Source: an uncultured Bacteroidota bacterium
GTDB lineage: Bacteria > Bacteroidota > Bacteroidia > 2-12-FULL-35-15
Reading direction: 5' to 3'
NCBI GenBank assembly: GCA_903847205.1
Contig: CAINDA010000056.1
Location: 62,001 to 126,000 of the forward strand
Length of the DNA: 64,000 bases
Below the pieces are notes generated by a model. That model ran no database searches. It was not told where the DNA came from and worked only from the letters and a program-made list of their open reading frames with translations. The stretch's first letter is position 1, and every line of letters begins with the position of its first letter. Shown in pieces: positions 37,325 through 61,703 of this stretch. The translations under genes were made by a program, and so were the position numbers.

Positions 37325-37332
37325 TTTTTCAT

Positions 37333-40276: not shown

Positions 40277-40326
40277 TTTTTATTGTTTTAAGTGATTAAT
40301 AATTAACTTTTTTTCAGATCTGAAAT

Positions 40327-42594: not shown

Positions 42595-42634
42595 TTTATT
42601 TAAATTTACATTGTGAATGAATTTTCACATCCTG

Positions 42635-42700: not shown

Positions 42701-42966
42701 ATTATTCAACATAATTTTTATCAATTACTGTTCCTCATTGAAAATCATAAAATACAAAACATTTTTTTCAAGTTTATAGCATAATAAATTTAGCATTTAC
42801 CTTCCCGAAAGGAAGTAAAATCGATGCTTAGATTGCAGTATCATTGATAAAAAAAATCCGCCATATGACGGACCGAATAAAATAATATATAAAGTTAAAC
42901 CGTGACCTTTGAATTTTAACAGCGCTAAGTTTACCGTTCAAGTTTTGAATTGCAATTACAAAGCCC
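42701..42966. other. Intergenic stretch after the universal stress gene
   Basis: The stretch is AT-rich, with a small imperfect hairpin (TCCG...CGGA around 42850-42866) that could be a weak terminator for the universal stress gene. I see no gene here. Confidence 0.45.
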
Positions 42967-43863: not shown

Positions 43864-43893
43864 GATAATAAGTCTATTTGATTTTTTGCACAA

Positions 43894-45315: not shown

Positions 45316-45391
45316 GATATTTGGCTGTCCGCTGCAAAATCTATCCGAACATTTATTTTTTAATTTACTAAAATCCCTTGCTTGTGGAGTT

Positions 45392-45823: not shown

Positions 45824-45936
45824 AGCTTCAGAGTGTTAATGTGTTAAAATATATTATTTGCTGATTTGTTTCATCTATAACTTTTAAATGCCTTTTTTAA
45901 AAATTTAAGTATTATACTACCTCTCTCACTTTACCA

Positions 45937-46521
45937 TTAAGGCGCTCCGTGCGGGGCGAACATCTGAACGACTTTAATACCGGCCATAAAAATTAAAACG
46001 AAGAAAAACAAAACAAAAAGGAGGCGTTTATATCTTCTTGCTTCTGTTTTAGCTTCCCTTGTTTTAAACAGGTTTAACAAAGAATAATTTATTTTTTTGA
46101 ATTGCGTTTCGGTTTTAACAACGTAATCTGAAGCTCCATGTTTTAATGATTCCAGGGCAATATCAATATGGTCATTGCTGGTAAGCATTATCACATCGGT
46201 TTTATTATTTTCTTTTTTAATCCAATCTAAAACCCTAATTCCATCTACAGCGTCGGCTATTTTGCTGTTTAAATAAAAATCCAGGATTACTAATTCAGGC
46301 ATCACTCTTCTGAACCTTTCTATGCAGCTTTCACCAGTTTCAAATGTGTATATCTTTATAAACATATTTTTGAAAGCCATTTCAATATCAGCTTTCAGTG
46401 CCAGAGTAAAAACCTTATTGTCATCAACAATAAAAATATTAATTTGATTTTTTGTATTCACGCTTATTATTTTTTGTGTGTTAGCAGAGGGCTCAGATAT
46501 TTTTGAATAAATAAAAATCAA
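45937..46521 (-). CDS. Response regulator receiver domain with C-terminal membrane anchor
   Basis: The 194-residue protein has an intact receiver (about 27-145: FIVDDNK, phospho-Asp in VILDFYLNS, IMLTSND, YVVKTET). A basic linker (REAKTEARRYKR) and a hydrophobic helix (LLFVLFFFVLIFMAGIKVVQMF) then anchor it near the C-terminus. A GTG at 46461 would remove 20 leader residues and gives an N-terminus similar to the other REC genes; the choice is open. The layout matches the regulator at 19326. It lies 10 bp after the REC protein at 46532 in the signalling operon. Confidence 0.88.
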   Translation of the reverse strand: MIFIYSKISEPSANTQKIISVNTKNQINIFIVDDNKVFTLALKADIEMAFKNMFIKIYTFETGESCIERFRRVMPELVILDFYLNSKIADAVDGIRVLDWIKKENNKTDVIMLTSNDHIDIALESLKHGASDYVVKTETQFKKINYSLLNLFKTREAKTEARRYKRLLFVLFFFVLIFMAGIKVVQMFAPHGAP

Positions 46522-46531
46522 GCCTTTCCCT

Positions 46532-46981
46532 CTAATTCAGAGATTCAATTGCTGGGAAATTGTTTCGATTAAAAATTTGGCTGATCAAATGCTCAACTTT
46601 ATTAAATGCATTTTTATCTTTTCTGATGTAATAACAATCGGTTTGTTTTACTGTTTCTAAGGCAACTTCAACCTCCTCTTGTGCACTTAAAACAATTATG
46701 TTTGTGAAGGGTCTTTGTGTTTTAATCCGCTTAATTATTTCAAGCCCATTATCAGCAGCTTTATATTTTGAATTCAAAAAATAATCCATAATAACGATAC
46801 ATGGATTATGATGTAATTCCATTAAACACATTTCTCCTATGCGGAAAGTTTTTATCTCTTTTACATCTAGGAACCGATTTTGAATAAATGTCTGAAGTGA
46901 TTTTGCATAAACTTCACTGTCTTCCACGATGAAAATTATTTTTTCTTCCGGGCTCATGCTTTTAAAAAATTCCGTTTCCAT
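46532..46981 (-). CDS. Single-domain response regulator
   Basis: The 149-residue protein is a receiver domain with a short tail. It shows the acidic pair (IIFIVEDSE), phospho-Asp (IVIMDYFLN), Ser (IVLSAQE) and Lys (YIRKDKN), all in place. It has no effector domain. It lies 20 bp after the HPt gene and may be the relay's phosphate acceptor. It is closely related to the protein at 45392. Confidence 0.92.
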   Translation of the reverse strand: METEFFKSMSPEEKIIFIVEDSEVYAKSLQTFIQNRFLDVKEIKTFRIGEMCLMELHHNPCIVIMDYFLNSKYKAADNGLEIIKRIKTQRPFTNIIVLSAQEEVEVALETVKQTDCYYIRKDKNAFNKVEHLISQIFNRNNFPAIESLN

Positions 46982-47001
46982 TTATTTATGGTTTAATAGT
47001 T

Positions 47002-47379
47002 TTAAACATAACTATGTTTCGCAGTTTCAATTTCTGAAATTGCGCGCATACATATCTGATTGAGTTTTAGATTGAGTCCTTTTATTTTTTCAATATTTTC
47101 AGCCTCTTTTGCCAAATCAACCATTTCCTGCAAAATCGGTCCCAAAATAGAAATACCCATTATTGAAACTGAGGATTTCATTGTGTGTGCAAGGCTTTTT
47201 ACAATGGGATAATCAGCTTTGGCAACGGAATCGTTTATACATTGAAGTTCTTCGGGTATCTGTTTTAAAAAAACATCCATTATCTCTTTGATCAAATTTT
47301 TTTTTCCGCCCATTATCTCCGAAAGATAACTTAGGCTGCATACATTTTCTGTTCCGCTTTCTGTCTCGTCAGTTTTCAT
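47002..47379 (-). CDS. Histidine phosphotransfer (HPt) protein
   Basis: The 125-residue HPt protein is a four-helix bundle with the phospho-accepting His in VKSLAHTMKSSVSIMG (about residue 62). It shuttles phosphate between the receiver of a hybrid kinase and downstream receivers. It lies 4 bp after the hybrid kinase gene and 20 bp before the REC gene, as expected for a split phosphorelay. In the hybrid kinase at 61770 the same domain is fused at the C-terminus. Confidence 0.93.
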   Translation of the reverse strand: MKTDETESGTENVCSLSYLSEIMGGKKNLIKEIMDVFLKQIPEELQCINDSVAKADYPIVKSLAHTMKSSVSIMGISILGPILQEMVDLAKEAENIEKIKGLNLKLNQICMRAISEIETAKHSYV

Positions 47380-47383
47380 TGCA

Positions 47384-48856
47384 TTAAGAATTAAGTGTTA
47401 ATTCATATATTTTATCAAAAAGCAAGTTGGCATTTATTGGTTTTGAGATATAATCGCTCATTCCTAAACCCAGACATTTTTCCCTTTCACCTGCCATTGC
47501 ATGCGCTGTCATTGCAATGATTGGAATTGGATTTTTTAATTGCTTCCGGATTATTGTAGTAGCCTCATAGCCATTCATCACAGGCATTTCCATGTCCATC
47601 AAAATGATATCAAATGATGAAAGCTGCGGACTGGAATCATTATTTTCCATAAGTTTTTCGATTCCAACATTTCCGTTCTCAGCAACTTCAACTTTTAGCT
47701 TGTTTTCAGAAAACAAACTGTAAATTAATTTTACGTTCAATAAATTATCCTCAACAAGCAATATTTTTAATTTGCTAAGATCCTCCATTGTATATTTTTT
47801 TGCTGCAATTACAGGGGCTGCCGGAACAATCTTTGATTTTTTATAAAGTATATGAAATGAAAAAACTGAACCTGAATTAAATTCACTTTTGACTGACAAT
47901 GTGCCTCCCTGAAGTTCCACCAGCTGTTTCGCAATACTTAATCCAAGGCCTGTGCCCCCGTATTTTCTTGTGGTATGTGACTCCGCCTGACGGAACCTCT
48001 CAAAAATATTTTCTAACTTATCCTCCGGTATCCCTATCCCAGTATCTTGAATCAAGAATTCCAATAGGGTATTGTCATCAACTTTGCTGCTATCAGTGAT
48101 TTCAGCATTTTTCAGAACTTTAACATTCACTTGTACTTTTCCTTTTTGTGTGAACTTAATTGCATTTCCTGTAAGGTTGATTATTATTTGAGTAAGCCTT
48201 GTGGAATCACCAAGCAGACTTTCCGGAACATTATCATCTATACTGAATGATAATTCAAGATTTTTTTCTTTGGCTTTTCCAATAAGCATTCCATTAATTG
48301 ATTTGAAAATTTCCTTCACACTGAAGGTATGTTCTTCAAAAGTCATCATGCCCGCCTCAATCTTTGATATATCAAGTATATCGTTGATAATTGTCAGTAG
48401 ATTTTCTCCAGCTAATTTTATTGTTCTTACATATTCTTTTTCCTTTTCGGCAAGTTTCCCTTTGGAAAGGATATCCGAAAAACCAATAATTGCATTCATC
48501 GGTGTACGGATTTCATGGCTCATGTTCGCTAAAAATGCCTCTTTTAATTTGGTTGCTTCCTCAGCTTTTTCTTTTGCCTCACTATAATCTTCAAGAATAT
48601 TAAGAACCGCACGCTGCGTGTTTTCCATATTTATTTTTTCTTCACTGTAATCGTCCAATATATTCAATAGAGCTCTCTGCGCATCTTCTGAGTGATATTT
48701 TTCTTCTGAGTAATCATCCAAAATATTCAGCAGTGCCTTTTCTGTTTCCTGAAGATCAATTTTTTCATCCGAAATAAATTCTTTATTCTCCGGTGAATTA
48801 TTTACATTTTCCCATGGGTTATAATCAACTTTGGTATTTTGTAAAGAAGATTGCAT
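47384..48856 (-). CDS. Hybrid histidine kinase with three 21-residue N-terminal repeats and no sensor domain
   Basis: The 490-residue protein begins with three copies of a 21-residue coiled repeat (ALLNILDDYSEEK core, about 38-100). HisKA follows (ANMSHEIRTPMNAII, His near 113), then HATPase_c (DTGIGIPEDKL, GGTGLGLSIAKQ) and a C-terminal receiver (ILLVEDN, ILMDMEMPVMNG, AMTAHA, SKPI). It has no PAS, transmembrane or periplasmic sensor of its own, so it may take its signal from the PAS protein encoded 45 bp upstream. The HPt gene is 4 bp downstream. Confidence 0.94.
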   Translation of the reverse strand: MQSSLQNTKVDYNPWENVNNSPENKEFISDEKIDLQETEKALLNILDDYSEEKYHSEDAQRALLNILDDYSEEKINMENTQRAVLNILEDYSEAKEKAEEATKLKEAFLANMSHEIRTPMNAIIGFSDILSKGKLAEKEKEYVRTIKLAGENLLTIINDILDISKIEAGMMTFEEHTFSVKEIFKSINGMLIGKAKEKNLELSFSIDDNVPESLLGDSTRLTQIIINLTGNAIKFTQKGKVQVNVKVLKNAEITDSSKVDDNTLLEFLIQDTGIGIPEDKLENIFERFRQAESHTTRKYGGTGLGLSIAKQLVELQGGTLSVKSEFNSGSVFSFHILYKKSKIVPAAPVIAAKKYTMEDLSKLKILLVEDNLLNVKLIYSLFSENKLKVEVAENGNVGIEKLMENNDSSPQLSSFDIILMDMEMPVMNGYEATTIIRKQLKNPIPIIAMTAHAMAGEREKCLGLGMSDYISKPINANLLFDKIYELTLNS

Positions 48857-48901
48857 TTGGCTTTGAATTAATATTCGTTTAAAAACAAAGATTTTTACTA
48901 A

Positions 48902-51034
48902 TTAAATTTTACTTTTTAAAACTTCGATTTCTTTTTTCAATTCAATCATTTTTAATTCCCGGCCCACTGTTAACTTTCTGAACCGCTCTAACTCTTCAAT
49001 TCTCATTAATTCTTTTTCACGTCCTGCAATTTCTCTTTCAGCAAGCTGTTTTTGTTCAGTAATATCTCTTGCAACTACCACCGCACCAAGCACGTTTCCT
49101 CTGTCATCTTTATAAACGGAACCGTTAAATAATACATCGGTAAGCTTCGCATCTTTATGACGCAGTGTAAGGGGGGAATCAGCAACTGAACCTTTTGCAT
49201 ATACTTCCTGGTAAACCTCCCGAGCTTTTTGCGGTTCAGTGAAATAATCAAAAAAGTCTGAGCCGATCAATTTTTCCCGTTCTATACCTGTAATGTTTAC
49301 TGTTGCCTCATTCATGTCAGTTATTTTGCCGTCTGTATTTATTGTAAATAATGGATCAAGACTTGCTTCAATCAAACTAAGTGAATATTTAGAAAGTAAT
49401 TTTTGGGCAGTTACGTCTCTTGCTACAATAACCACCCCTAGTACATTCCCTCTGTCATCTTTATACACTGAGCCGTTAAATAAAACATCTGTAAGTTTTC
49501 CATCCTTGTGGCGAAGCGTAAGCGGGGAATCGGCAACAGATCCTTTTGCAAAAACCTCCTGGTAAACCTCACGCGCCTTTTGCGGCTCAGTAAAATAATC
49601 GAAGAAATCGGAACCAATTAATTTCTCCCTCTCAACCCCCGTAATGTTTACCAATGCTTCATTCATATCTGTAATTTTCCCTTCTGTACTGATAGTCACC
49701 AAAGGGTCTAGACTTGCCTCAATCAGGCTAAGGGAATATTGAGAAGCTAATTTTACAGAATAACTGAAAGCTTCTAATTCTTTATTCGCAATTTCACGCT
49801 TTTCTTTTTCCTTATTTTGAAAATCAAGTTCAATGTCAGCAATGACAAGCTCTGCAGCACGTTTTTCTTTTTCTCCAGTTTGAAAAACCAGTTCCTTGTT
49901 TGCTATAAATAACTCTGCTGCCCTCTTTTCTTTTTCATTATTTTGAAAAGCAAGTTCTTCGTTTGCTATGATTAACTCTGCCGCTCTTTTTTCTTTCACT
50001 TCGTTTTGAAAAGCAAGTTCCTTATTTGCAATTACTAATTCTGCTGCTCGTTTTTCTTTTTCATTGTTTTGAAAAGCAAGTTCTTCATTGGCAATTACTA
50101 ATTCTGCTGCTCGTTTTTCTTTTTCATTGTTTTGAAAAGCGAGTTCTTCATTGGCAATTACCAATTCTGCTGCCCGCTTCTCTTTCACCTGATTTTGAAA
50201 TGCGAGTTCTTTGTTAGCTATAACTAACTCTGCTGCTCGTTTTTCTTTCTCATCATTTTGAAAAGCCAATTCCTTATTTGCAATGACTAACTCCGCTGCA
50301 CGTTTTTCTTTTTCATCATTTTGAAAAGCAAGTTCTTTGTTAGCAATGATTAATTCTGCAGCCCGTTTTTCTTTTTCAGCGGCTCGTTTTTCCTTTTCTT
50401 CATTCTGAAATGCCAGCTCTTTGTTTGCAATAATTAATTCAGCTGCACGCTTTTCTTTTTCTTCGTTCTGAAATACAAGTTCTTTATTTGCGATAATTAA
50501 TTCTGCCGCCCGTTTCTCTTTTTCATCATTTTGAAAAGCAAGTTCCTTATTAGCAATACGCAATTCTATCGCCCATTTTTGTTCGGCGACATCTCTTGCC
50601 ACAATCACCACTCCAAGAACATTTCCCTTGTCATCTTTATAAACGGATCCATTAAATAAAACGTCAGTAAGTTTTCCGTCCTTATGTCGCAGTGTAAGCG
50701 GGGAATCTGCAACTGATCCTTTTGCAAATACTTCTAAGTAAACTTCCCGTGCTTTTTGCGGCTCAGTAAAATAATCAAAGAAATCTGTGCCGGTTAATTT
50801 TTCTCGGGTCAAGCCGGTAATGTTTGCCAAAGCCTCATTCATATCTGTAATTTTTCCTTCGGTGTTTATGGTGACCAAAGGATCCAAGCTTGCTTCAATC
50901 AGGCTTCGCGCATATTCTGAGGATTGCTTTTGTGCAACAGAATCAATTGCGACGATTATGCTACTCATCCCAACTATTGGTTTAATTTTTTGTGAAGACT
51001 TTGCCATAATATTTATTATTGGATTATTCAGCAT
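48902..51034 (-). CDS. PAS-only signalling protein with twelve 21-residue coiled-coil repeats
   Basis: Three near-identical PAS domains carry the EASLDPLVTINTEGKI and ALxNITG patterns. The first is separated from the other two by twelve copies of a 21-residue unit built on IANKELAFQN-EKEKRAAEL, with one 7-residue insertion. No kinase or cyclase domain follows; the end is EELERFRKLTVGRELKMIEL then lysine-rich. It has no transmembrane helix. The frame is open to ATG 51118, but promoter site 11 requires a later start, ATG 51034 or 51007. It leads the signalling operon. Confidence 0.85.
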   Translation of the reverse strand: MLNNPIINIMAKSSQKIKPIVGMSSIIVAIDSVAQKQSSEYARSLIEASLDPLVTINTEGKITDMNEALANITGLTREKLTGTDFFDYFTEPQKAREVYLEVFAKGSVADSPLTLRHKDGKLTDVLFNGSVYKDDKGNVLGVVIVARDVAEQKWAIELRIANKELAFQNDEKEKRAAELIIANKELVFQNEEKEKRAAELIIANKELAFQNEEKEKRAAEKEKRAAELIIANKELAFQNDEKEKRAAELVIANKELAFQNDEKEKRAAELVIANKELAFQNQVKEKRAAELVIANEELAFQNNEKEKRAAELVIANEELAFQNNEKEKRAAELVIANKELAFQNEVKEKRAAELIIANEELAFQNNEKEKRAAELFIANKELVFQTGEKEKRAAELVIADIELDFQNKEKEKREIANKELEAFSYSVKLASQYSLSLIEASLDPLVTISTEGKITDMNEALVNITGVEREKLIGSDFFDYFTEPQKAREVYQEVFAKGSVADSPLTLRHKDGKLTDVLFNGSVYKDDRGNVLGVVIVARDVTAQKLLSKYSLSLIEASLDPLFTINTDGKITDMNEATVNITGIEREKLIGSDFFDYFTEPQKAREVYQEVYAKGSVADSPLTLRHKDAKLTDVLFNGSVYKDDRGNVLGAVVVARDITEQKQLAEREIAGREKELMRIEELERFRKLTVGRELKMIELKKEIEVLKSKI
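49770..50560. repeat. 63-bp coding repeats (21-residue coiled-coil units)
   Basis: Twelve approximate copies of a 63-bp unit encode the IANKELAFQN-EKEKRAAEL coil of the PAS protein. Each is three heptads long, and one unit has a 21-bp (7-residue) insertion. Related units occur in the REC-SpoIIE gene (about 44690-44930) and in the kinase at the right end (from about 63780). The repeats preserve coil register and reading frame. Confidence 0.9.
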
Positions 51035-51115
51035 TAGGAAATCTCTTAATTTTATAGTTAATTTTTTCAAACAATCCTTTTTTAATGTCTTATCCGGCGA
51101 TTTGCTTTTGTTAAA

Positions 51116-51181
51116 CAAAGGACGTTACTTATACCGCCCTATGTGTTACACAACTTTGAAAAGAAGTTACATCATTCACAC
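51116..51181 (-). promoter_or_regulatory. Shared promoter element, site 11 (phosphorelay operon)
   Basis: On the minus strand: GTGTGAA (51181-51175), TGTAAC (51171-51166), TGTAAC (51150-51145) and TCCTTTG ending at 51116. It shows that the long-frame start at 51118 is not used. The PAS gene starts 81-108 bp downstream. Confidence 0.84.
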
Positions 51182-51218
51182 CTTTTTATGGAGAATATGG
51201 CTTTAAGAATATAAAAAA

Positions 51219-51247
51219 AAGAGCACTGCTTAATAAGCAATGCTCTT
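51219..51247 (-). terminator. Strong hairpin terminator after the cyanophycinase-like gene
   Basis: The arms 51219-51232 and 51234-51247 pair over 11 or more bases around an AT-rich tip, with A- and T-runs on both sides. It lies 104 bp past the stop at 51351 and divides the metabolic cluster from the signalling operon's promoter site 11. Confidence 0.88.
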
Positions 51248-51350
51248 ATTTTTACCCATTAAAGGTTAAGTAATTTTAGGGTTTTAAGTATTCAGGTATT
51301 TCGAATTAATTAAATTGAAATACATTTCTCTTTAGTCCAAGTTCAAAAAT

Positions 51351-52202
51351 TTAAATCAGAAATTTTCTTTCTTTAAATAAATAACGGCTGCCCTCAGCAA
51401 TTATGCTGACGTTTAAATTTTCAATAACAATTGGAGTTAAATGATTAACAGCTGCAATGTTGGTGTTGTCAATTTTACTTCCGTCGATAAGAATTACCAT
51501 ACCCGACCCAATACATTCCGCATGGTTTCCTTCTGAAATTACTAAAGCTGTGTTTTCCTCTAATCCTATCCCAAGGCTGGAGGGATTCAAGGCAACAGCA
51601 TGTGCTAATCGAGCAAATCGGCCTCTTTTAATAAAATGAGTGTCAATAATTACATCATTTATTAAATTAAATCCTTTGCCAATTTCAATATCATCCTTGA
51701 AAAGAGCCTCTCTTATTAAGCCGCCGGTAATAATTGTTTCTGACATAACCATTGCTCCTGCGCTTGTTCCGCCAACAATAAAATTTTTATCAGAATAGTA
51801 TTTATTTTTTATTGCACTTAGTAATTCTGTTTGCCCTATCATTGATACAAGTTTAGACTGATCTCCCCCGGTAAAAAAAACGGCATGGGCGCTTTGGACT
51901 CGTTTTATTGAAACGAGATTACAAGCATCCTCTATACTTTCTACTTTTATAATTCCAACATGAGTAAAACCTTCGCGCTTGTAGGAGTCAATGTACATAC
52001 CTTCCATTTCCACCGGAATAGAGGAAGCGGATGCAATAATCTCAATGATATGATGTGCTCTGGGAATCCTTGAAATAAGAGTTCCTAATATTTCAAAATG
52101 CGATTTCGAAATCTTTTTTTTATGAATCGTAAGGTTTTCGCCGCTAATATCTCCTTTGTCTTCGTGCCCTCCGACAATTAGTAATTTCCCTTTAGGTACC
52201 AT
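51351..52202 (-). CDS. Cyanophycinase-like serine peptidase (peptidase family S51)
   Basis: The 283-residue protein has the cyanophycinase/peptidase E layout: GKLLIVGGHEDKG at the start, HAVFFTGGDQSKLV, and the nucleophile-elbow GGTSAGAMVMSE with the catalytic Ser. It has no signal peptide, unlike secreted CphE forms. Cyanophycinases release beta-Asp-Arg dipeptides from cyanophycin, and relatives cleave other Asp dipeptides. I see no cyanophycin synthetase here, so the substrate is unclear. Its start overlaps the aminotransferase stop by 11 bp, so the two are coupled. Confidence 0.86.
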   Translation of the reverse strand: MVPKGKLLIVGGHEDKGDISGENLTIHKKKISKSHFEILGTLISRIPRAHHIIEIIASASSIPVEMEGMYIDSYKREGFTHVGIIKVESIEDACNLVSIKRVQSAHAVFFTGGDQSKLVSMIGQTELLSAIKNKYYSDKNFIVGGTSAGAMVMSETIITGGLIREALFKDDIEIGKGFNLINDVIIDTHFIKRGRFARLAHAVALNPSSLGIGLEENTALVISEGNHAECIGSGMVILIDGSKIDNTNIAAVNHLTPIVIENLNVSIIAEGSRYLFKERKFLI

Positions 52203-53466
52203 GCTGCCTATGCGATTTAATTAATTCGGTGATGCGTTCAAGCCCCATCTTTAAATTTTCTTCTTCCGGCCCGAATGAAAATCGGACATACTGGTTAAAG
52301 TTAAACTCTTTTTTTTGACTGCCGGGATGTATATCAAAAATATTACCAGGAACTGTTATAACCTTATGTTTGAGCGCTTCTTTAAAAAAGCAATCTGAAT
52401 TATTCAATGGTGGCGGCAGACGGCTGATATCAGCCCAGATATAAAAAGTACTTTCAGAATCATCGGAGCAGATAATTCCGTTTTCTCTCAGGGTGTTTAA
52501 AATGATGTTTTGCTTTCTTGCAAATACTTCACGCAAAGCATTAGATTCCTGATCTGCCCTTTCAGGTTCGAATAATTGAATGGCAGCTCTTTGGATTGGA
52601 AGGCTCGGCCCTCCGTCAATCGCGCTTGCTGCACACCCAATATCTTCTATCACTTTTTCCGGACCGAGTATCCATGCGAGTCTCCATCCTGGATATCGGA
52701 AGGATTTGGTTAAACCATCGACAATTAAAATGGAATCTGAATTGACATCTTCTACAAATGCAGCAGATGAAACTGGACCATCAGCTGGCTTTCCATTCTC
52801 ATAAATAAAATGCGAATATACTTCATCCACTATAAGAGTGCAGTTTTCTTCTTTTGCAATTTTCAAGTATTCATTCAACTCTCCGTCTTTTATTACATGG
52901 CCGGTTGGGTTGCAGGGGTTGCTAAAGAGGAACGCATCCAAATGATATTGCTTAACCGCCTTCTTAAATGAAACGGAAGGAATTGAAAAATTATTTTGTT
53001 TTTTTGAAAGAATGCACACAGGTGTAATTCTATCCAGCTGGTAATTTAGCATATCTTCATAAGCAGGATATTCTGGAGTTTTATAGCCCAGCCGGATTTT
53101 TCCCAATATTGTAAAAATGCGTGTAAGGGCAAGCCGGCCCCCCATCGCGATACTCACATTCCCGGCAGTGTATTTCGAGATTTTATTTTTTCGATACAGC
53201 CTATTGTAATGTTCAGCAATAGCCTTTCTCAATTCAAGCATTCCATTTAATGGGCCGTATCTGTCATCATTGGGTTCGATTGAAAACTGTTTAATACGCT
53301 CCGGCGCTCCTTTCATTTCCCCAACCTCCGGCTCACCTTGTCCAAGGTTTGCCCATTCTGGATTTCCATTGTAAAAGCCAATTTTTTTAGCTTCATCCAT
53401 TACCCATATTACACCAATATCATTGACTTCAATAAATGCGCATCGGGCTGTAATTAATTTTTCCAT
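52192..53466 (-). CDS. PLP-dependent class I/II aminotransferase
   Basis: This is a fold-type I enzyme of 424 residues. SNPCNPTGHVI binds the substrate carboxylate region, DEVYSHF carries the PLP pyridine Asp-Tyr, and the catalytic lysine lies in DGLTKSFRYPGWRLAW. Substrate specificity cannot be read from the motifs alone. It lies 70 bp after a small membrane protein gene and overlaps the cyanophycinase-like gene, within a five-gene amino-acid cluster. Confidence 0.9.
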   Translation of the reverse strand: MEKLITARCAFIEVNDIGVIWVMDEAKKIGFYNGNPEWANLGQGEPEVGEMKGAPERIKQFSIEPNDDRYGPLNGMLELRKAIAEHYNRLYRKNKISKYTAGNVSIAMGGRLALTRIFTILGKIRLGYKTPEYPAYEDMLNYQLDRITPVCILSKKQNNFSIPSVSFKKAVKQYHLDAFLFSNPCNPTGHVIKDGELNEYLKIAKEENCTLIVDEVYSHFIYENGKPADGPVSSAAFVEDVNSDSILIVDGLTKSFRYPGWRLAWILGPEKVIEDIGCAASAIDGGPSLPIQRAAIQLFEPERADQESNALREVFARKQNIILNTLRENGIICSDDSESTFYIWADISRLPPPLNNSDCFFKEALKHKVITVPGNIFDIHPGSQKKEFNFNQYVRFSFGPEEENLKMGLERITELIKSHRQHGT

Positions 53467-53536
53467 TATTGAAATCTTCTTTTGTGTTTAGGATCAGAGA
53501 GGTTTTAAAATTTGCAGTATAAATTTTGTCACTGAT

Positions 53537-53989
53537 TTATAATTTTTTGTTAAGCTGTTTTAATTCGTAGCTGAGTATTACCAAAATATAAAAAGTAAAA
53601 TCGCCGGCAATCTTTCCAACAAGAATTCCAAGCGGGAAATTTTTCAAATAAATGGGAAAGAGATACATAAAAAACGGCCGAAGAAACAGCCCGTCAAGAA
53701 GACCGGCAGGTCCAAATTCTAAAACAATATTTGTTATAATCTTAGGGAAATTTAAAAATGAGAATTTTATATTCTCCGTCTTTTTCTTCTTATAAACAAT
53801 TAAAATGTTTTGAATAAAAATGGTTGAGTAGAAACCAATTGCCTCGCCTAAAGACCCTGAATATGCTGTAATAACAGGGTTTACATAAAACATATGGGTT
53901 ATGCCGGCAACACTAACAGCTGTTATTGTACCAGCGATTTCTGCAGGTAAATATCTTTTTATCCATTCCTTAATTTTTCTCTTTATCAT
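53537..53989 (-). CDS. Small polytopic membrane protein, unrecognised
   Basis: The 150-residue protein has three to four hydrophobic segments (about residues 17-37, 45-65, 88-110 and 120-142), basic ends and a conserved-looking EFGPAGLLDGLFLRPFF loop. I do not recognise the family. It lies 16 bp after the PsiD-like decarboxylase gene and 70 bp before the aminotransferase gene. A transporter or anchor for the product of the cluster is one possibility. Confidence 0.7.
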   Translation of the reverse strand: MIKRKIKEWIKRYLPAEIAGTITAVSVAGITHMFYVNPVITAYSGSLGEAIGFYSTIFIQNILIVYKKKKTENIKFSFLNFPKIITNIVLEFGPAGLLDGLFLRPFFMYLFPIYLKNFPLGILVGKIAGDFTFYILVILSYELKQLNKKL

Positions 53990-54005
53990 TACTATTGATG
54001 ATAAC

Positions 54006-55151
54006 CTATATCACTGGAAATGCCTGGGCGATTTTAGTTCCCATCTTATAATGTAAAGTTTTCTGGCAAGTGAAACTCACATTGCTTGCGGATTCAAACA
54101 GAACAATAATATCGGAGCCCCCAAATTGAAAATACGATAACTCTTCTCCTTTGCGGACAGTTACACCTTCTTCGGCTGTAATGATAACCGAGGAAACCTG
54201 CGACATTCCAATTGGTAAAACAGCCACAAGACCTATAGGAGTGTCAAGAACGATCAATCCTCTTGTCTGAGCAAACTGGTACCCTGGTATGTCAAACGAA
54301 TCGTAATTTCTTTTAAGATGTAAAGTATGTTTTACGGAATTTTCATCAATTACTCTTGCTTCTACCTCCTGATATACCTGCCCTTGAATAACCCTTGCTT
54401 CAATAACTCTGCCTCCTACAGGTGCATGCTGGCGGTGATAATCTGTGGGGCCGAGATAAGAATGCATAAATAGTCCGTTTTCAAAACGGTCTTTGTACGG
54501 GCTTCCTTCAAGCAATTCGCTGACTTTCCAATTTAAATTTTTTACAGTTACATTTGAATCTTTTCTGATTTCCCACTGCCCCCCAAACGTTGAATCTGCA
54601 GGCATCACAATTATCGATTGATCGGATATTGCAGCAATAGGACGGTACCCAGGTTTAAAGTGCCGTGCAAAAATTTGGTTAAAGGTGCTCCATCCTCCAT
54701 GCGGCCTTGTATATTCATGCATGTTGTAATAGGGAGAATCGTAAAATGTTTTTTCCGATGCTTTGGTTAATGATTCAGGAGTGTCGAGGAATTCACCCAT
54801 TGCATTAGCATATTTTACAAGCCATTCAGAAAAGGGGGTGAGTCGAAGTGCTTTGTCATAAGGGATAACTTTGTTCTGCAGCGACAAAACCGGTTCTTGA
54901 TCTGCAATAAAATAAAATGCACTGAGATGATCGTTGACGTTTTGCCCAGATGAATTTTCAGTTGGAACCCAATACAAAAATGCATTGATCCAATCCAAAT
55001 ATTGATCAAGAGTTTTAACATTCTCTAATAAGGGTACATTTTTACTATGTGCTTTTTTTATCGCATTTTCAAAACCCTTTTTCCAATTGTTTACCGTAAT
55101 CATTTTAACCAAAATCTCCACCACGGGATGATATATTTTTTTTTGTAACAT
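54006..55151 (-). CDS. PsiD-like decarboxylase (phosphatidylserine decarboxylase family with PF12588-type N-terminal region)
   Basis: The 381-residue protein has the N-terminal region of the soluble PSD-like enzymes (DHLSAFYFIADQEPVL ... PFSEWLVKYANAMGEFLDTP). Then comes the PSD fold (FNQIFARHFKPGYRPI, SYLGPTDYHRQHAPV) with the C-terminal self-cleavage site FQFGGSDIIVLFE, where serine becomes the pyruvoyl group. It has no transmembrane segment, unlike true PSD. Fungal PsiD decarboxylates tryptophan, so an amino-acid substrate is plausible. It follows the group II decarboxylase gene by 204 bp. Confidence 0.82.
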   Translation of the reverse strand: MLQKKIYHPVVEILVKMITVNNWKKGFENAIKKAHSKNVPLLENVKTLDQYLDWINAFLYWVPTENSSGQNVNDHLSAFYFIADQEPVLSLQNKVIPYDKALRLTPFSEWLVKYANAMGEFLDTPESLTKASEKTFYDSPYYNMHEYTRPHGGWSTFNQIFARHFKPGYRPIAAISDQSIIVMPADSTFGGQWEIRKDSNVTVKNLNWKVSELLEGSPYKDRFENGLFMHSYLGPTDYHRQHAPVGGRVIEARVIQGQVYQEVEARVIDENSVKHTLHLKRNYDSFDIPGYQFAQTRGLIVLDTPIGLVAVLPIGMSQVSSVIITAEEGVTVRKGEELSYFQFGGSDIIVLFESASNVSFTCQKTLHYKMGTKIAQAFPVI

Positions 55152-55355
55152 TTTTTATAGATTTATTATTTTGAGTTTTCGGATTCCTGATTTAATTATT
55201 GACGAAAATATTTTACAAATTGCAACAGCGAAACATTACTGAACTAAAGGACTTACATGATGACTCAGATCTATCAGATATAACTCAGGCCGATCAGCTT
55301 TTTAAAGGTTGAAAAATCTTGATTAATAAAATAAATGAGATACTCTCGAAAGCAA

Positions 55356-57122
55356 TTATACCAGCTCTTTCTTAATTGGCTTAATAATCGTCACTTCATC
55401 CCTTGCTGCAACAATACATTCCAGAACATGGTCCATTATTGCAGGAGTTATATTTACGTTCATTGGAAACATTTTAACAGCATAAATTACGGCTTCACTG
55501 TCTTTCATATCTCTATTATATTCAGTAGTGCGAAAGCCTGTACTGAAGCTTAGGTAAGGGGTGCATTGTCCGTTAATTTTTTTGCCGGAGCGAAACCATT
55601 CGAATAATTTATCGCCAATTGCATGGGTCATTTTGTTATGTTTGATCAAGGCTCCCCGAAACGCAGGGTCATGCAGTTCAGAGTTGAACTGAGCGCGTGC
55701 ATCCATACCTTTGGGATATATTCGCAGCAATGTTACTAATCCATAATCAGAAGGATTAACACATACCATTTCGAATTTTTTTTCAATTTGATTTTTCAGA
55801 TATACTTTGTTTTCAAGTATACCGCCTAATACAGACTGGAATCCTTCATGACCGAAAAATTTAAGTGTTGCCCATCCTGCAATTGAGCCTGTTGCAGCTC
55901 TTGAAACTTCTAAGGTATAATTTAGGGGATTGTAAGGCGAACGCGGCTGGAGATAGGCTGAAGCTCCTCTCGAAAGCAATGTTTCAAACTCTTTTGCATT
56001 TTTATAAACGAAAGTACTGCTGATATAAGGCGAAAAACCGGTTTTATGAAAATCAACTCCGAAAGCATCAGCATAAAAAATTCCCTTTATTGCATTGTAA
56101 TTTTTTTCAATGTAAGGCAGTACTGTTTCAGAAAAACCTAGCGGATTTTTTTTGAAATCATAATTTTTAAAAGCAATCCATGACCAGCCGATAACTGAAT
56201 CACAGTATAGCAGGGACTTTCCATATCCTTTTGGGTTTGGATACTTGTCCATTAATTTTCTTACCTCTTCTACTGGATCAAATGCGTTTGCATCCGTAGT
56301 TCCCATTGTACAGACAACCGATGCAACAGGAATATTTTTTGCCTGGCAATCTTTCAAAACTATTTCAAGATGCTTTGTATCCATTGCATTTGTATCAGAA
56401 TCTGTTTTAATTCGAATAATGTTATCCATGCCTAAACCCATCCAGTCGGTACTGTTAAGCATGGTATAGTGAGCCTGCTGTGAGCAGATAACTTTTGCAT
56501 CTGTCCGCACTCCTTTATATCTTGAATCGGGAAGTACCCGCGTAAGAGCATATTTTAAATGATAAGTCCAGCAGCCTGAACCGCCGTAAGTATAAATACA
56601 TCCTGCTTCCTTTGGTTTCCAGCCTGCAAGGTTCGCTAATATTCCAGCAGATTCTAATTCAGCCTGATGCGTATTCCATGCATATTCTCCTTCAAGAATA
56701 TTGGGCGCAAATATTTCTGATAAAATTGCCGCAACTATTGCAACAGTGTTTCCCTGAGGGTTTACATTATTCATTGTAAGCGGATGCCCCCAGTTAGGCA
56801 TGCCTTCGAACAATTTTATAACTTGCTTAATTACTTCATCAGAAGTACTCATCTTTGGATTTAGAGAAGAATCTTTTACATTTTCAAAATCAATGGTCAA
56901 TGCAGGATTAGTACCAAGAAAAGCTGCGCCTCCTTTTTTTTTCGGTTTGAGCTTATCCAGCTGTCTTATGGCTTCATTTATGCCGTCAGCCAAAGAATCT
57001 CCTCCCCCCCTATAGGGAGAAGGAAATGATTTAGCCATCTCTGAACGAAACTTTGCGCGTTTCGGCATTATATGGCTGTTTAATCCATCTTCCTTTAAAA
57101 ACTCTTTTGATTTCTTTTTCAT
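55356..57122 (-). CDS. Group II PLP-dependent amino-acid decarboxylase
   Basis: The 588-residue protein is of the glutamate/aspartate/aromatic decarboxylase fold. The PLP lysine lies in DAFGVDFHKTGFSPYISS (about residue 350), a conserved histidine stacking region is QAHYTMLNSTDW, and TMGTTDANAFDPVEEV carries the PLP-pyridine aspartate. It is longer than a typical 480-residue enzyme because of N- and C-terminal extensions. The substrate cannot be told from sequence. It is the first gene of the metabolic cluster; no shared-element promoter was found upstream. Confidence 0.9.
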   Translation of the reverse strand: MKKKSKEFLKEDGLNSHIMPKRAKFRSEMAKSFPSPYRGGGDSLADGINEAIRQLDKLKPKKKGGAAFLGTNPALTIDFENVKDSSLNPKMSTSDEVIKQVIKLFEGMPNWGHPLTMNNVNPQGNTVAIVAAILSEIFAPNILEGEYAWNTHQAELESAGILANLAGWKPKEAGCIYTYGGSGCWTYHLKYALTRVLPDSRYKGVRTDAKVICSQQAHYTMLNSTDWMGLGMDNIIRIKTDSDTNAMDTKHLEIVLKDCQAKNIPVASVVCTMGTTDANAFDPVEEVRKLMDKYPNPKGYGKSLLYCDSVIGWSWIAFKNYDFKKNPLGFSETVLPYIEKNYNAIKGIFYADAFGVDFHKTGFSPYISSTFVYKNAKEFETLLSRGASAYLQPRSPYNPLNYTLEVSRAATGSIAGWATLKFFGHEGFQSVLGGILENKVYLKNQIEKKFEMVCVNPSDYGLVTLLRIYPKGMDARAQFNSELHDPAFRGALIKHNKMTHAIGDKLFEWFRSGKKINGQCTPYLSFSTGFRTTEYNRDMKDSEAVIYAVKMFPMNVNITPAIMDHVLECIVAARDEVTIIKPIKKELV

Positions 57123-57292
57123 ATTATTCCACTGAGTTATAAAATTATTTTATTTTAATCACGGGCAATACACAAGACAAAACACTACTATAACTAGAAT
57201 AAATTAATAATGTACTGCCTTTTGATCTTATACCGCATTAAAAAAATTACATCATCCTATCCATTCGTATTTTTAATTGTACTTAAAAATAT

Positions 57293-57445
57293 TTAAGAAG
57301 CAATCACTTTTGCTTCAGGATATCTTCTAAGCCATATCTCTAGGGATGCCTTGCGCGATAGAGTTATAACTGTTTTATAATCCAGCTGAACCTTAATTGA
57401 CTCGAGGCCTGAAGCTGCTGTGTACTCTTTGATTTTATTTTTCAT
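57293..57445 (-). CDS. 50-residue unrecognised protein directly under a shared promoter
   Basis: The minus-strand ORF starts at ATG 57445 (MKNKIKEYTAASGLESIKVQ) and ends EAKVIAS then TAA at 57293. It is a small soluble protein with a helix rich in lysine and a terminal RRYPEAK. No family is recognised. It starts 32 bp from a well-formed promoter element (site 12) and has no other gene between. It is the most strongly promoter-supported of the small genes. Confidence 0.78.
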   Translation of the reverse strand: MKNKIKEYTAASGLESIKVQLDYKTVITLSRKASLEIWLRRYPEAKVIAS

Positions 57446-57477
57446 TTGTTTTATATTTTTTAGATTTATTTATACGG

Positions 57478-57543
57478 CAAAGATAGATTAGGTGATTGCG
57501 ATGGGTGTTACATAAATTTTGAAATCTGTTACATCTTTCACAC
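57478..57543 (-). promoter_or_regulatory. Shared promoter element, site 12 (50-residue gene)
   Basis: On the minus strand: GTGTGAA (57543-57537), TGTAAC (57533-57528), TGTAAC (57512-57507) and TCTTTG ending at 57478. Spacing is conserved. Confidence 0.84.
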
Positions 57544-57722
57544 ATTTTTTACGATAAAATTCAGTTAGAAAAACAGTTTTCGATTGCTGCAGAGAATGTT
57601 TTGAGACAGGGCTTCAGGAAAATTTTGCAGGAACGTTATATAACTAATATAATCTAAATATTAAACTATGATAAATTAAATAAATCCATTTGCGAATTTT
57701 ATCTATATCGCCTGGAGAAATA

Positions 57723-58304
57723 TTAATGTAAGGGATATACCGATTTAGAAAATTCATTCATTGGAACCCTATCTAATTTGCTGTTTATTTCATTGAGCAA
57801 GGAAAATTGTTTTTCCTGAGAATTAAAAAGGGTTTTGATTTGTTCTTCTAATAACAAGTCCATTTTTTGATGCAGGCTGCGGATTTGCATCTCAGCTTTA
57901 AGATTTATCAGGTAATCGTTTTCGCTTCTCATTCTGTCTTTTTCTTCCTTTCTGTTTTGGCTCATCATAATGATTGGGGCTTGCAGGGCAGCAATACAGG
58001 AGAGAATCAGGTTCATTAAAATGAATGGGTAGGGGTCAAACATGAATTTTGAAATAACTGCAACATTAAAAATAATCCAGAGAGTTAATACTACCCCAAA
58101 TAAAATAATAAAGCGCCAGCTTCCTCCGAAGCGGGCTACTTTATCTGAAATTTTTTGTCCATGAGTAAGTGTTTCTATCGGCGGATTCAATAGATTATGA
58201 ATAATAAGCTCTTCCGCTTCAAGCGTGTCCTTCACAATTTGATGCAGTCTTTCAAGGTGCTCATTCTCATCAAATAAAAGCCCGTCAATATCGCTGTCAG
58301 CCAT
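57723..58304 (-). CDS. DUF1003 membrane protein
   Basis: The 193-residue protein has a cytoplasmic N-terminus, two transmembrane helices (about residues 73-92 and 103-122), and the DUF1003 signature GQKISDKVARFGGSWRFI ... QAPIIMMSQNRKEEKDR. A long soluble helix follows (EMQIRSLHQKMDLLLEEQIK). The role is unknown in the family. There is no shared promoter element immediately upstream; the 105-bp gap holds the terminator of the next gene. Confidence 0.92.
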   Translation of the reverse strand: MADSDIDGLLFDENEHLERLHQIVKDTLEAEELIIHNLLNPPIETLTHGQKISDKVARFGGSWRFIILFGVVLTLWIIFNVAVISKFMFDPYPFILMNLILSCIAALQAPIIMMSQNRKEEKDRMRSENDYLINLKAEMQIRSLHQKMDLLLEEQIKTLFNSQEKQFSLLNEINSKLDRVPMNEFSKSVYPLH

Positions 58305-58364
58305 AAACTTTTTAATTAGTCAATAAAAAATGCAATTATAATTACTAAATTTATTAAATAGAAA

Positions 58365-58390
58365 GAGCGCCTGAATTAATCGAAGCGCTC
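58365..58390 (-). terminator. Hairpin terminator after the third ice-binding protein
   Basis: GAGCGC (58365-58370) pairs with GCGCTC (58385-58390), followed by an AT-rich tract. It lies about 20 bp past the stop at 58410, so it ends the transcript before DUF1003. Confidence 0.72.
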
Positions 58391-58409
58391 CTATTTTGAT
58401 ATTGATATT

Positions 58410-59150
58410 TTACTGGCATACGATGGTATTGCCACCCATAACAACCGCACCGGTTCTTGCCAATCCTTTGCCATCAAGCGTTGCACCAGTATTGAAAGTG
58501 ATAGACTGCATTACCATAACTGTACCTTTAAAAACAGAAGTCGTTCCAAAAGTTGCAGAACTGCCTACCTGCCAGAAAATATTGGATGCCAATGCGCCTC
58601 CGCCAAGTATTACTTTACGGCCGGATGTGGCGGTGAGAGTTGATGCAATTTGAATTATAAACACAGCATCTGAATTTCCTTTAGCATCGAAAGTAAGATC
58701 GCCCGAAGATACAGCAAGCGAGGATGTTGATTTATAAAGTCCCGGCGTAAGTGTAAGGCCGCCGATATTTCCTGATAAAGTAACAATATCTGTGCAGGTT
58801 CTTCCTGCAGCATCATTATATGCTGCAGTTAAATCTAATTTAGCCTGAACAGCAATAGGATCGTTGATGTGTTTGGTTCCGATTAAAATGCCCGGAGGAA
58901 AGCCGCCAATTGAAGAACCTGGGCAAAGCCCAATGTCACCTGTAATTGTAGTAGCTCCTGTGCTGCTAATTGCAGAACCGGCAAGAATTGCGAGGTTTGA
59001 TAAACCGGAAAGGGCCACTCTTGCCTGCACTGTTGTTTGAAGCGGGATTGGAGTTAAATTGACGGGAGTTGGCTCATCTTTTTTTTTGCACCCGGCAATT
59101 AAAACAATGGCTGCTATTACAAAAGTTGATAGTAGTTTTTTCGTTTTCAT
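58410..59150 (-). CDS. Ice-binding-type (DUF3494) lipoprotein
   Basis: The 246-residue protein has a lipoprotein signal ending LIAGC (Cys21). A single DUF3494 domain follows (AGSAISSTGATTITGDIGLCPGSSIG, PGLYKSTSSLAVSSGDLTF, GTVMVMQSITFNTGATLDGK ... VVMGGNTIVC). It is the smallest of the three ice-binding-type proteins here and is held by a lipid anchor instead of a T9SS sorting domain. Promoter site 13 lies 59 bp upstream. Confidence 0.93.
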   Translation of the reverse strand: MKTKKLLSTFVIAAIVLIAGCKKKDEPTPVNLTPIPLQTTVQARVALSGLSNLAILAGSAISSTGATTITGDIGLCPGSSIGGFPPGILIGTKHINDPIAVQAKLDLTAAYNDAAGRTCTDIVTLSGNIGGLTLTPGLYKSTSSLAVSSGDLTFDAKGNSDAVFIIQIASTLTATSGRKVILGGGALASNIFWQVGSSATFGTTSVFKGTVMVMQSITFNTGATLDGKGLARTGAVVMGGNTIVCQ

Positions 59151-59209
59151 TTGTTTATCGTTTCTATTTCCGCCGATGGCGGGTCAGATGAAAATTATTT
59201 TTCACACTG

Positions 59210-59275
59210 CAAAATTGAGTATCATAAGAATTTTATGTGTTACACAACTTTTATAATAAGTTATAAGATTCCCAT
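59210..59275 (-). promoter_or_regulatory. Shared promoter element, site 13 (ice-binding lipoprotein)
   Basis: On the minus strand: ATGGGAA (two changes in the outer box), TATAAC (59265-59260), TGTAAC (59244-59239) and TTTTG ending at 59210 (CTTTG in the others). Spacing is conserved. It is a weaker match than most. Confidence 0.72.
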
Positions 59276-59303
59276 ATTGGGAATTACAAGAGGCTTTAAA
59301 ATA

Positions 59304-60212
59304 CTATAAAATATTTTTAACTTGGGCTAAAGTATCGGATTTAGCAAGTTCAGTCGGGGGCACTTTGCCCGAATACATAGCTGCATAGGCTGCAGTAAAT
59401 TCGGCTCCAAAAAACAAAATCATAGATGAATACGATACCCACAAAAGAATTAATATTACAGAACCGGCTGCGCCATACCCAGAGGCCGGCTGCGCTCTTC
59501 CAAAATAAAATGCAAGAGCTGTTTTTCCCATTGTAAATAATAATCCAGTAACTAATGCTCCAAGCCAAACATGTTTCCATTTGATTTCCGCATCCGGCAG
59601 AATTTTGAAAATGAGCCCAAAAAGAATTGATATTACTGTTAAGGAAAAAATAAAATTGAGGCCGGCAAAAAACAAGGTTGTTAAAGCATTTGCATCACCT
59701 TTAATCCAATTGCTCATTGCAGCAATTACTGTAGAGATAATAAGTGAGATTAAAAGTAAAAAGGCGATTGCCAAAATTAATCCAAAAGAAAAAAGCCGCG
59801 CTTTTAAGAAAAGTAAAATTCCTTTTTGAGGAAGCACTTTCACCTGCCAAATTGTGTTTAATGTTTTTTGCAATTCTACAAAAACTCCCGTTGCTCCTAC
59901 AAGAATGGTTGCAATGCCAACGATTGAGCCCCACATTGTGGATTTAACCTGACCAGCACCTGCCAGCAATTCTTTTATCTGCGCAGCAGTATCAGCCCCC
60001 ATTGTTCCTGATACTTGTGCTAATATATTTTGATCAACCGCCTCTTTTCCAAAAAAATATCCAGTGAGGGTTATTATGAGAACTAATAATCCAGGCAGAC
60101 TGAATATTGCATAGTAGGCAATAACAGCGCTTTGCCTGAATGGATCCTTCTGATTCCATTCTTTAAAGGCTGCTTTAAACAATTTCCATAAATCACCAAA
60201 TCTAAGCTGCAT
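59304..60212 (-). CDS. YihY/BrkB-family membrane protein
   Basis: The 302-residue protein has the YihY (formerly RNase BN) layout of six transmembrane helices, with the N-terminal KDPFRQSAVIAYYAIFSLPG block and the C-terminal ILLWVSYSSMILFFGAEFTAAYA block. It is not an RNase; the family function is unsettled. It is 148 bp after the REC gene at 60361 and is the last gene of the right-hand signalling group. Confidence 0.93.
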   Translation of the reverse strand: MQLRFGDLWKLFKAAFKEWNQKDPFRQSAVIAYYAIFSLPGLLVLIITLTGYFFGKEAVDQNILAQVSGTMGADTAAQIKELLAGAGQVKSTMWGSIVGIATILVGATGVFVELQKTLNTIWQVKVLPQKGILLFLKARLFSFGLILAIAFLLLISLIISTVIAAMSNWIKGDANALTTLFFAGLNFIFSLTVISILFGLIFKILPDAEIKWKHVWLGALVTGLLFTMGKTALAFYFGRAQPASGYGAAGSVILILLWVSYSSMILFFGAEFTAAYAAMYSGKVPPTELAKSDTLAQVKNIL

Positions 60213-60360
60213 ATTGTAAGCTGATTATAAAATATTTTATTTTGAGGTTTTAAAAAACAGCAGGCGGGAGAAAAACAAATCCCCTAATAAACTGGGATTT
60301 GAGCGAACGTTTTATAATTTACACTTGTAACATCTATAAAATAAATTTGCAATTTTATAC

Positions 60361-60804
60361 TTACCAATCCCAGACAATTAACTCCTTTTCTTTAGAGAAT
60401 ATTCCTAAAATTTTTTTTATACAGGCCTTCAGTCGAAAAAAAGTATTTAGGTTTTTTACAACGTAATCAAATGCGCCGAGTTTAAGGCTTTGGGTTGCAA
60501 CATCAATGTATTCCATTGCTGATAACATTATAACCTGGGTATTGGGCAATGTTTCTTTTATTATTGCCAATGTTTGCAGACCATCCAAAGCCCTTATGTT
60601 TACTGATGATAAAATGTAATCAAGTATAATGACATCGGGTTTCAAAATTAAATTTTTAATACAGTCTTCCCCGGTTAAAAATGTTTCGATTTTAAGATTA
60701 GGGTTTTGACTGAACTGAAGCTCTAAAGATTTCAAATACAAAGCATCATCATCAACAATAAAGATGAGAATACTTTTTTGATCCGGCTGGATTATGTCTT
60801 TCAT
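60361..60804 (-). CDS. Single-domain response regulator
   Basis: From ATG 60804 the protein is an intact receiver domain of 147 residues, with acidic pair FIVDDDA, phospho-Asp in IILDYIL, IMLSAME and YVVKNLN. No effector domain is present. The upstream ATG at 60846 would add 14 residues of no known motif. It lies 98 bp after the REC-plus-domain gene in the right-hand signalling group. Confidence 0.9.
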   Translation of the reverse strand: MKDIIQPDQKSILIFIVDDDALYLKSLELQFSQNPNLKIETFLTGEDCIKNLILKPDVIILDYILSSVNIRALDGLQTLAIIKETLPNTQVIMLSAMEYIDVATQSLKLGAFDYVVKNLNTFFRLKACIKKILGIFSKEKELIVWDW

Positions 60805-60902
60805 ATCAATAATTCCGGAATTTGGTAATTTATGCACTGGTGTCATAGGTTTAAGTCTGATTTATCTTGAAAATAATTCTTAATTAAATAATAGCATCGC
60901 TG

Positions 60903-61511
60903 TTATTTAACGATGATGTTATGTTCCAAAATGTATTTATTCAACATTGAATGAAGTGAATCATAATATGCTTTTAAATTTTGAAGCATCATTCCGGAAT
61001 TGTTTTCATCTTGAATTGATTCAGGCATTTCTTCAATATATTTATACAGTTCAGGATATTTTTCCAGTATAGTCATTGTAATTTTCAGGATTTTAGAATT
61101 CAATTCTTTCTCAATACTATTTTTAAGAATGTTCTGAGTCCGAATCAATGCTGTTTCGCTTTTTACAACATATTCATAAGCTCCATTTGAGATAGAGTCG
61201 GTTGCAATTTTTATTTTATCTTCTGAAGACAGCATGATGACAATCGTTCGAAAATTAATTTCTTTAATTTTTTTCAAAACTGCTATTCCGTTCATGGCAT
61301 TTTTAGACTCTGTATTTAAATGATAATCCAGTATCACTATATCCACCCCTTCAGGACTTTGCTTAATTTTTCTTAAGCAGTCTTCCCCAGTCATAAATGA
61401 TTCAATTTGGATTTCTGATTTAAAACGTTCATTCAAAGAGAGCGCAAGTGTTTTAAGAAACACTTCATTATCATCTACTAAAAAAACTGATATATTATTT
61501 TTCGAACCCAT
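60903..61511 (-). CDS. Response regulator fused to a conserved helical output domain
   Basis: From ATG 61511 there is a receiver domain (residues 5-125: VFLVDDNE, phospho-Asp in VILDYHLN, IMLSSED, YVVKSET). A C-terminal block of about 70 residues follows, starting KELNSKILKITMTILEKYPE and ending YYDSLHSMLNKYILEHN. This is the same domain as in the stand-alone protein at 31876. The upstream ATG at 61568 would put the start inside promoter site 14, so 61511 is chosen. No DNA-binding domain is present; the output domain is of unknown function. Confidence 0.9.
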   Translation of the reverse strand: MGSKNNISVFLVDDNEVFLKTLALSLNERFKSEIQIESFMTGEDCLRKIKQSPEGVDIVILDYHLNTESKNAMNGIAVLKKIKEINFRTIVIMLSSEDKIKIATDSISNGAYEYVVKSETALIRTQNILKNSIEKELNSKILKITMTILEKYPELYKYIEEMPESIQDENNSGMMLQNLKAYYDSLHSMLNKYILEHNIIVK

Positions 61512-61553
61512 TTTTTTGCTGTTTAGTATTAATATTTGATTTTCGTAACACTG

Positions 61554-61619
61554 CAAAGATGGCTGCATTAAAAGCCTGATGTATTACACAACTTTTTAAA
61601 TATGCTGCATAATTCACAT
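61554..61619 (-). promoter_or_regulatory. Shared promoter element, site 14 (right-hand response regulator operon)
   Basis: On the minus strand: ATGTGAA (one change in the outer box), TGCAGC at the distal repeat, TGTAAT at the proximal repeat (61588-61583) and TCTTTG ending at 61554. Site 5 has the same two repeat variants. Spacing is conserved. Confidence 0.78.
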
Positions 61620-61703
61620 GTTTGTTTTGAATTATTATATTTTTTAATTCCACTAAAAATTATTTAACCCACATCGGATTATACTTCTCATAATCTATAT
61701 AAC

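Follow-up and report, generated by a model that had tools for sequence, protein, structure and literature searches.

A five-gene operon with two decarboxylases and a second cyanophycinase in a putative stress regulon of an uncultured Bacteroidota bacterium

We analyzed a stretch of 64,000 nucleotides (the window: positions 62,001 to 126,000 of contig CAINDA010000056.1, assembly GCA_903847205.1) from an uncultured Bacteroidota bacterium, in which five genes encoding a pyridoxal phosphate (PLP) decarboxylase, a PsiD-like pyruvoyl decarboxylase, a small membrane protein, an aminotransferase and a cyanophycinase very probably form one operon of a stress regulon, judging from their layout and from an operator shared across the surrounding island. 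A preliminary description of this cluster had reported five minus-strand open reading frames (ORFs) running in one direction, an 11-bp overlap of the aminotransferase and cyanophycinase genes and a terminator at the end, all of which were confirmed. The features of the operon are as follows.

57122-55356, minus strand: PLP decarboxylase gene, 588 aa (PF00282, 59 bits, cut-off 27)
55151-54006, minus strand: PsiD-like gene, also resembling phosphatidylserine decarboxylase (PSD), 381 aa (PF02666, 160 bits)
53989-53537, minus strand: small integral membrane protein gene, 150 aa, without a Pfam or NCBIfam family
53466-52192, minus strand: class I aminotransferase gene, 424 aa (PF00155, 134 bits)
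52202-51351, minus strand: cyanophycinase gene, peptidase family S51, 283 aa (TIGR02069, 193 bits against a cut-off of 126.6; PF03575)
51247-51219, minus strand: strong intrinsic terminator of the operon, a 13-pair stem followed by a T run
57478..57544, minus strand: promoter of the operon, operator TGTGTGAAAGATGTAACAGATTTCAAAATTTATGTAACAC with -7 box TATCTTTG (position weight matrix score 45-49)
57293..57445, minus strand: possible leader ORF of 50 aa between promoter and decarboxylase (from translation; a mechanical ORF only)

The operator matrix was built from ten sites and later refined with 39, and sites were counted at a score >=12. The window has 14 such sites, all on the minus strand and located just upstream of genes or at mechanically called starts, with scores of 15-57 against <=6.7 for window sequence that had been shuffled or regenerated by a Markov model. 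The refined consensus (tGTGTGAATnATGTAAcTtaTTncaAAAgTTaTGTAACAc, 39 sites) is 40 bp long and contains two copies of ATGTAAC at a spacing of exactly 21 bp, and a TTTG box follows at one fixed distance in 34/39 sites, which fits the Bacteroidota -7 element TAnnTTTG. Within the five-gene cluster the best matrix score is 6.7 and the island operator precedes the first gene only; therefore, the cluster is most simply read as having one promoter. At least 13 further genes or operons of the island are preceded by this operator as well. The intergenic distances in operon order are 204, 16 and 70 bp, ahead of the overlap.

The operon belongs to a stress island of >85 kb, and nearly all window genes from ~6.8 kb onward are on the minus strand. 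Family searches found a universal stress protein, BrkB/YihY, a SpoIIE-type phosphatase with receiver, PAS proteins, a hybrid kinase, DUF1003 and DUF3494 among its products, while catalase, bestrophin-like, YceI-like, Dps-like and YtxH-like proteins were recognized from annotated homologues or from translations read by eye; kinases and response regulators are also encoded. Whole stretches of the island recur at related loci (L023, L025, L026, L029), where gene calls are mechanical ORFs. A literature search on the island or the operator found nothing. The preliminary description, which read the gene combination as an undescribed pathway, is incomplete in that it missed this wider context of a stress-regulon island under one common operator.

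The operator is concentrated in the island: 14 sites lie in the window, 6 in the next 33 kb of the contig (L186, L187) and 29 in Bacteroidota island loci, against a single weak one across 1.5 Mb of other loci. Elsewhere in the window's genome (5.49 Mb in 72 contigs, 100% complete) there were 0 sites in 373 kb and 2 in a further 397 kb, a scan of ~0.77 Mb or ~14% of the genome outside the island. These two outlying sites are on contig C64 (L213:15538 and L214:9499, both minus strand), the first upstream of genes for small twin-arginine-like proteins and a membrane protein, as judged by eye. Relatives of the PLP decarboxylase were collected by scanning its profile against 84,980 genomes, which gave 366 related stretches, the best 80 of which are described here. 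The operator precedes the decarboxylase by ~40-350 bp in L023, L024, L025, L027, L028, L029, L031, L034 and L035, among which L027 and L034 are Runella or Chitinophagaceae metagenome assemblies; none was found at this place in L026, L030, L032 and L033, or in ten tested homologues from other phyla or from loci other than the island. The remaining operator sites of the window, from the matrix scan, are listed below.

51116..51182, minus strand: operator/promoter of the next downstream gene (PAS-repeat protein, 51118-48902)
59210..59276, minus strand: operator/promoter of the upstream DUF3494 gene (59150-58410)
11625..61620, minus strand: range covered by the remaining eleven operator/promoter sites, whose starts are 61620, 42701, 40682, 39156, 36446, 32871, 31748, 30434, 23554, 19944 and 11691

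Three ice-binding-like (DUF3494) genes are under the shared operator (26759-30370, 40969-42594 and 58410-59150). The PAS proteins at 48902-51118 and 61773-63998 carry long, near-perfect repeats of ~16-20 residues (EKEKRAAELIIANKELAFQN), the number of which varies between paralogues.

Direct repeats spaced by roughly two turns of the helix are a common target of AraC-family proteins, and a protein with an AraC-type helix-turn-helix is encoded in the islands of L026 (1-327) and L030 (8748-9392). In the window's genome a gene 82% identical to these (G000:C56:147048-147626; L187:2048-2626) lies ~21 kb past the window end, with an operator ~100 bp upstream; one also lies upstream of the L030 copy, which suggests autoregulation. 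We infer that this AraC-type protein is the regulator of the operator, to which it is predicted to bind.

That the five genes belong together, as the preliminary description had proposed, is supported by other Bacteroidota, in which parts of the set occur jointly, so that the set is more than chance. No second complete set was recovered from 36 congeners or 247-395 genomes of the phylum, but parts recur in shuffled order. Most of these relatives are contigs of metagenome-assembled genomes (MAGs) with short flanks, and missing partners often reflect contig ends. Island cyanophycinase genes directly precede the PLP decarboxylase gene in the Bacteroidota MAGs L025 and L026, and in L025 a PsiD-like gene (79%) follows 6 kb beyond the pair. 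A 3.1-kb contig of congener G021 carries the membrane protein, aminotransferase (75%) and cyanophycinase (76%) genes in the window order, then a response regulator gene, and in L071 the PLP decarboxylase gene is followed by genes for a PsiD-like enzyme and a PF04371 protein (agmatine-deiminase superfamily). The PLP decarboxylase itself is present in 1/36 genomes of the genus, a distribution that points to acquisition by horizontal transfer or to repeated losses.

The cluster cyanophycinase retains S147, H189 and E216 in an alignment that included 3en0, and its GTSAGA, DTHF, RGRFAR and LEENT motifs align with that structure; three arginines are kept, and a threonine replaces the glutamine before the histidine. 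We take the first three residues to be catalytic and the arginines to bind substrate, as in the Synechocystis enzyme. A profile search of the genome found a full-length cyanophycin synthetase on contig C49 (1259 bits, cut-off 850), adjoined by a divergent cyanophycinase that is 45% identical to the cluster copy. Therefore, the cluster copy is a second, distinct paralogue. It shares 69-77% identity with the copies of G021, G012, L025 and L026, and its best other matches among 395 genomes of the phylum reach ~45%, which places it in a separate island clade. In a published survey, cyanophycinase was clustered with cphA1 in 81% of the genomes having both (PMC10206079). The statement in the preliminary description that no cyanophycin synthetase was visible is thus true of the window but false for the genome, and its suggestion that the peptidase might act on another Asp peptide is unsupported, since the genome has the synthetase and the cyanophycinase residues are kept. 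It had also named a synthetase together with absent linkage as evidence against its reading; the synthetase is present, but linkage is partly conserved.

The PLP decarboxylase has K360, H218 and D308, its catalytic residues, invariant in a 71-member alignment, and its AlphaFold model (pLDDT 89) matches GADL1, GAD65, CSAD and further structures equally well in fold (Z ~39). Its scores fall below every equivalogue cut-off (DABA 68/900 bits, PanP 66/606, TyrDC 61/905, GAD 14/380). The active-site loop HPLTMNNVNPQ had no match among known loop types; active-site residues of the valine decarboxylase VlmD are given in PMC7794544. Among the best 80 relatives, 13 Bacteroidota contigs encode decarboxylases 74-86% identical to that of the window, those of Edwardsiella, Photobacterium and Plesiomonas are 65-67% identical, and those of cyanobacteria and methanogens ~50%. 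On sequence grounds the enzyme is a member of a separate, widespread, uncharacterised subfamily.

In Edwardsiella and Photobacterium (L036, L037, L039-L041) the homologous decarboxylase, which is distinct from GadB, is followed by two GadC-type antiporters, one of which in Edwardsiella is above the Gln/GABA antiporter cut-off and one just below. Photobacterium iliopiscarium additionally has a third GadC, a glutaminase and a glutamate decarboxylase after it, and a GadC-type antiporter also lies beside the decarboxylase in L045. These neighbors would suit acid resistance of the GadBC kind, in which the PLP enzyme would use up protons by decarboxylating an amino acid taken up from outside, the other operon genes being incidental; no such antiporter, however, was found in the window operon or by the decarboxylase in other Bacteroidota loci, and we regard this explanation as distinctly improbable.

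In the PsiD-like protein D186, H239, H242 and S346, the last in the GGS self-cleavage motif, are invariant among aligned homologues. Its model (mean pLDDT 80) matched PsiD 8zia over residues 5-344 (Z 23.5, 299 residues, root-mean-square deviation (rmsd) 3.6; VIA-align) and the Aspergillus oryzae arginine decarboxylase 9jer from residue 5 (Z 22.4, 296 residues, rmsd 3.5), followed by E. coli PSD (Z 17, mainly from residue ~110). The preliminary description had assigned PF12588 plus PSD. The PSD domain stood; PF12588 (PSDC) gave no match at E 0.1, nor was it found by a genome search that had no positive control, though the N-terminal helical domain aligns structurally with that of PsiD. Its view that this PSD homologue has the architecture of PsiD and amino acid decarboxylases, not the plain PSD type, agrees with our results. 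Both decarboxylases fall outside every described equivalogue family by curated cut-offs. The match of the modelled fold does not fix the substrate.

A true PSD remodelling membrane lipids under stress would account for the PF02666 score of 160 bits and for E. coli PSD being the next structure match. The protein nevertheless misses the PSD models (TIGR00163, 84 vs 112 bits; TIGR00164, 31 vs 230 bits), its N-terminal domain is of the PsiD type, and another PSD gene, on contig C67, can serve lipid synthesis; we consider a true PSD very improbable.

The best NCBIfam match of the aminotransferase is GntC (NF041364), a family of guanitoxin biosynthesis. Together with the PsiD-like architecture, this match would suit a dedicated natural-product pathway, a form of the amine pathway suggested in the preliminary description, whose end product would be a secondary metabolite made by coupling or modifying two amines. 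However, GntC was matched at 150 bits against a cut-off of 415, the cluster contains none of the genes usual in such pathways (ligase, nonribosomal peptide synthetase, methyltransferase, oxygenase, exporter), and a stress island with a common operator is not the expected setting, so that we find this proposal improbable. For the membrane protein, a homologue in congener G002 (L106:7979-11492) follows a pair of diaminobutyrate aminotransferase and diaminobutyrate decarboxylase genes. Seven other homologues sit with sensor kinases or unrelated genes, and because they lack such a context a role as amine exporter stays a guess.

The explanation that we favor, though its chances fall a little short of even, is a stress operon that mobilises a nitrogen store and couples this to pH and stress protection. 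Its metabolic core, that the stress-induced operon opens the cyanophycin reserve and decarboxylates amino acids, the substrates being inferred, is likewise put forward tentatively, with rather less than even confidence. Under stress the island-encoded AraC-type regulator would switch the operon on, and the second cyanophycinase would cut stored cyanophycin to beta-Asp-Arg, from which peptidases encoded elsewhere would release Asp and Arg. The PsiD-like pyruvoyl enzyme would decarboxylate one amino acid, with arginine to agmatine as the first guess, and the PLP enzyme a second one, acidic or neutral; both reactions would consume protons and yield amines. Recycling of amino groups would fall to the aminotransferase, and the small membrane protein may serve to carry an amine out of the cell. 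A stricter version has a low probability: a stress-switched cyanophycin-to-amine module under AraC-type control, with its own dedicated cyanophycinase and a decarboxylase assigned to each of the two cyanophycin amino acids (the pyruvoyl enzyme for arginine, the PLP enzyme for aspartate or the dipeptide), in which the store would absorb protons internally and supply amines.

In favor of this explanation we count the concentration of the operator in the island, the partial linkage in L025, L026 and G021, the cyanophycin synthetase of the genome, the antiporters that follow homologous decarboxylases in Edwardsiella and Photobacterium, the structural match of the PsiD-like model to an arginine decarboxylase as well as to PsiD, and the PF04371 gene beside both decarboxylases in L071. 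Several observations weigh against the favored explanation: the 204-bp gap between the PLP decarboxylase and PsiD-like genes, the presence of the complete set in 1/36 congeners, the lack of a cyanophycinase near most PLP decarboxylase homologues, the occurrence of PsiD-like homologues elsewhere as solitary genes, some of whose products seem to carry signal peptides, the L071 protein of family PF04371, which had no agmatine deiminase equivalogue match, and the operon's want of a GadC-type antiporter noted above. The chief rival is that control alone is shared, i.e., that independent stress genes were gathered in the island and their enzymes work separately. The shuffled gene order between islands would be expected on this account, as would the other neighbors that the PLP decarboxylase usually has elsewhere, e.g., catalase in L030 and L035, but it does not explain why the five window genes are under one promoter or why cyanophycinase adjoins the PLP decarboxylase in two MAGs that are differently arranged. 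We consider it rather unlikely.

A stress-controlled release of stored nitrogen would offer a testable reason for a cyanophycinase existing apart from cyanophycin synthesis. The analysis also points to an uncharacterised, widespread decarboxylase subfamily in fish-associated and enteric gammaproteobacteria, cyanobacteria, methanogens and Bacteroidota, and to PsiD-type enzymes in bacteria. Further, the operator defines a putative Bacteroidota stress regulon, for which other genomes can be scanned, and marks further genes without an assigned function as co-regulated.

The cluster resembles the known cyanophycin-degrading loci, in which cphB or cphI lies with cphA1, iadA or iaaA (PMC10206079), in that TIGR02069 is passed, the catalytic residues are kept and the genome has a synthetase; unlike these loci, it has two decarboxylases in place of a nearby cphA1 or dipeptidase gene. 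With GadB/GadC plus glutaminase acid resistance (PMC6250119) the likeness is that the gammaproteobacterial homologues precede GadC-type antiporters, whereas the window decarboxylase scores 14 bits against the GAD cut-off of 380 and its operon is without an antiporter. The PLP enzyme shares the fold (Z ~39) and the catalytic Lys/His/Asp of the group II decarboxylases GAD/CSAD/GADL1, DABA and tyrosine decarboxylase, but is 16-19% identical to them and misses all equivalogue cut-offs. Finally, the PSD core, GGS site and N-terminal helical domain of the PsiD-like enzyme are common to PsiD, the L-tryptophan decarboxylase of Psilocybe (PDB 8x4q/8zia), and to the arginine decarboxylase of Aspergillus oryzae (PDB 9jer/9jf5), while the window enzyme is 18-24% identical to them, is unmatched by PF12588, and is bacterial and operon-borne.

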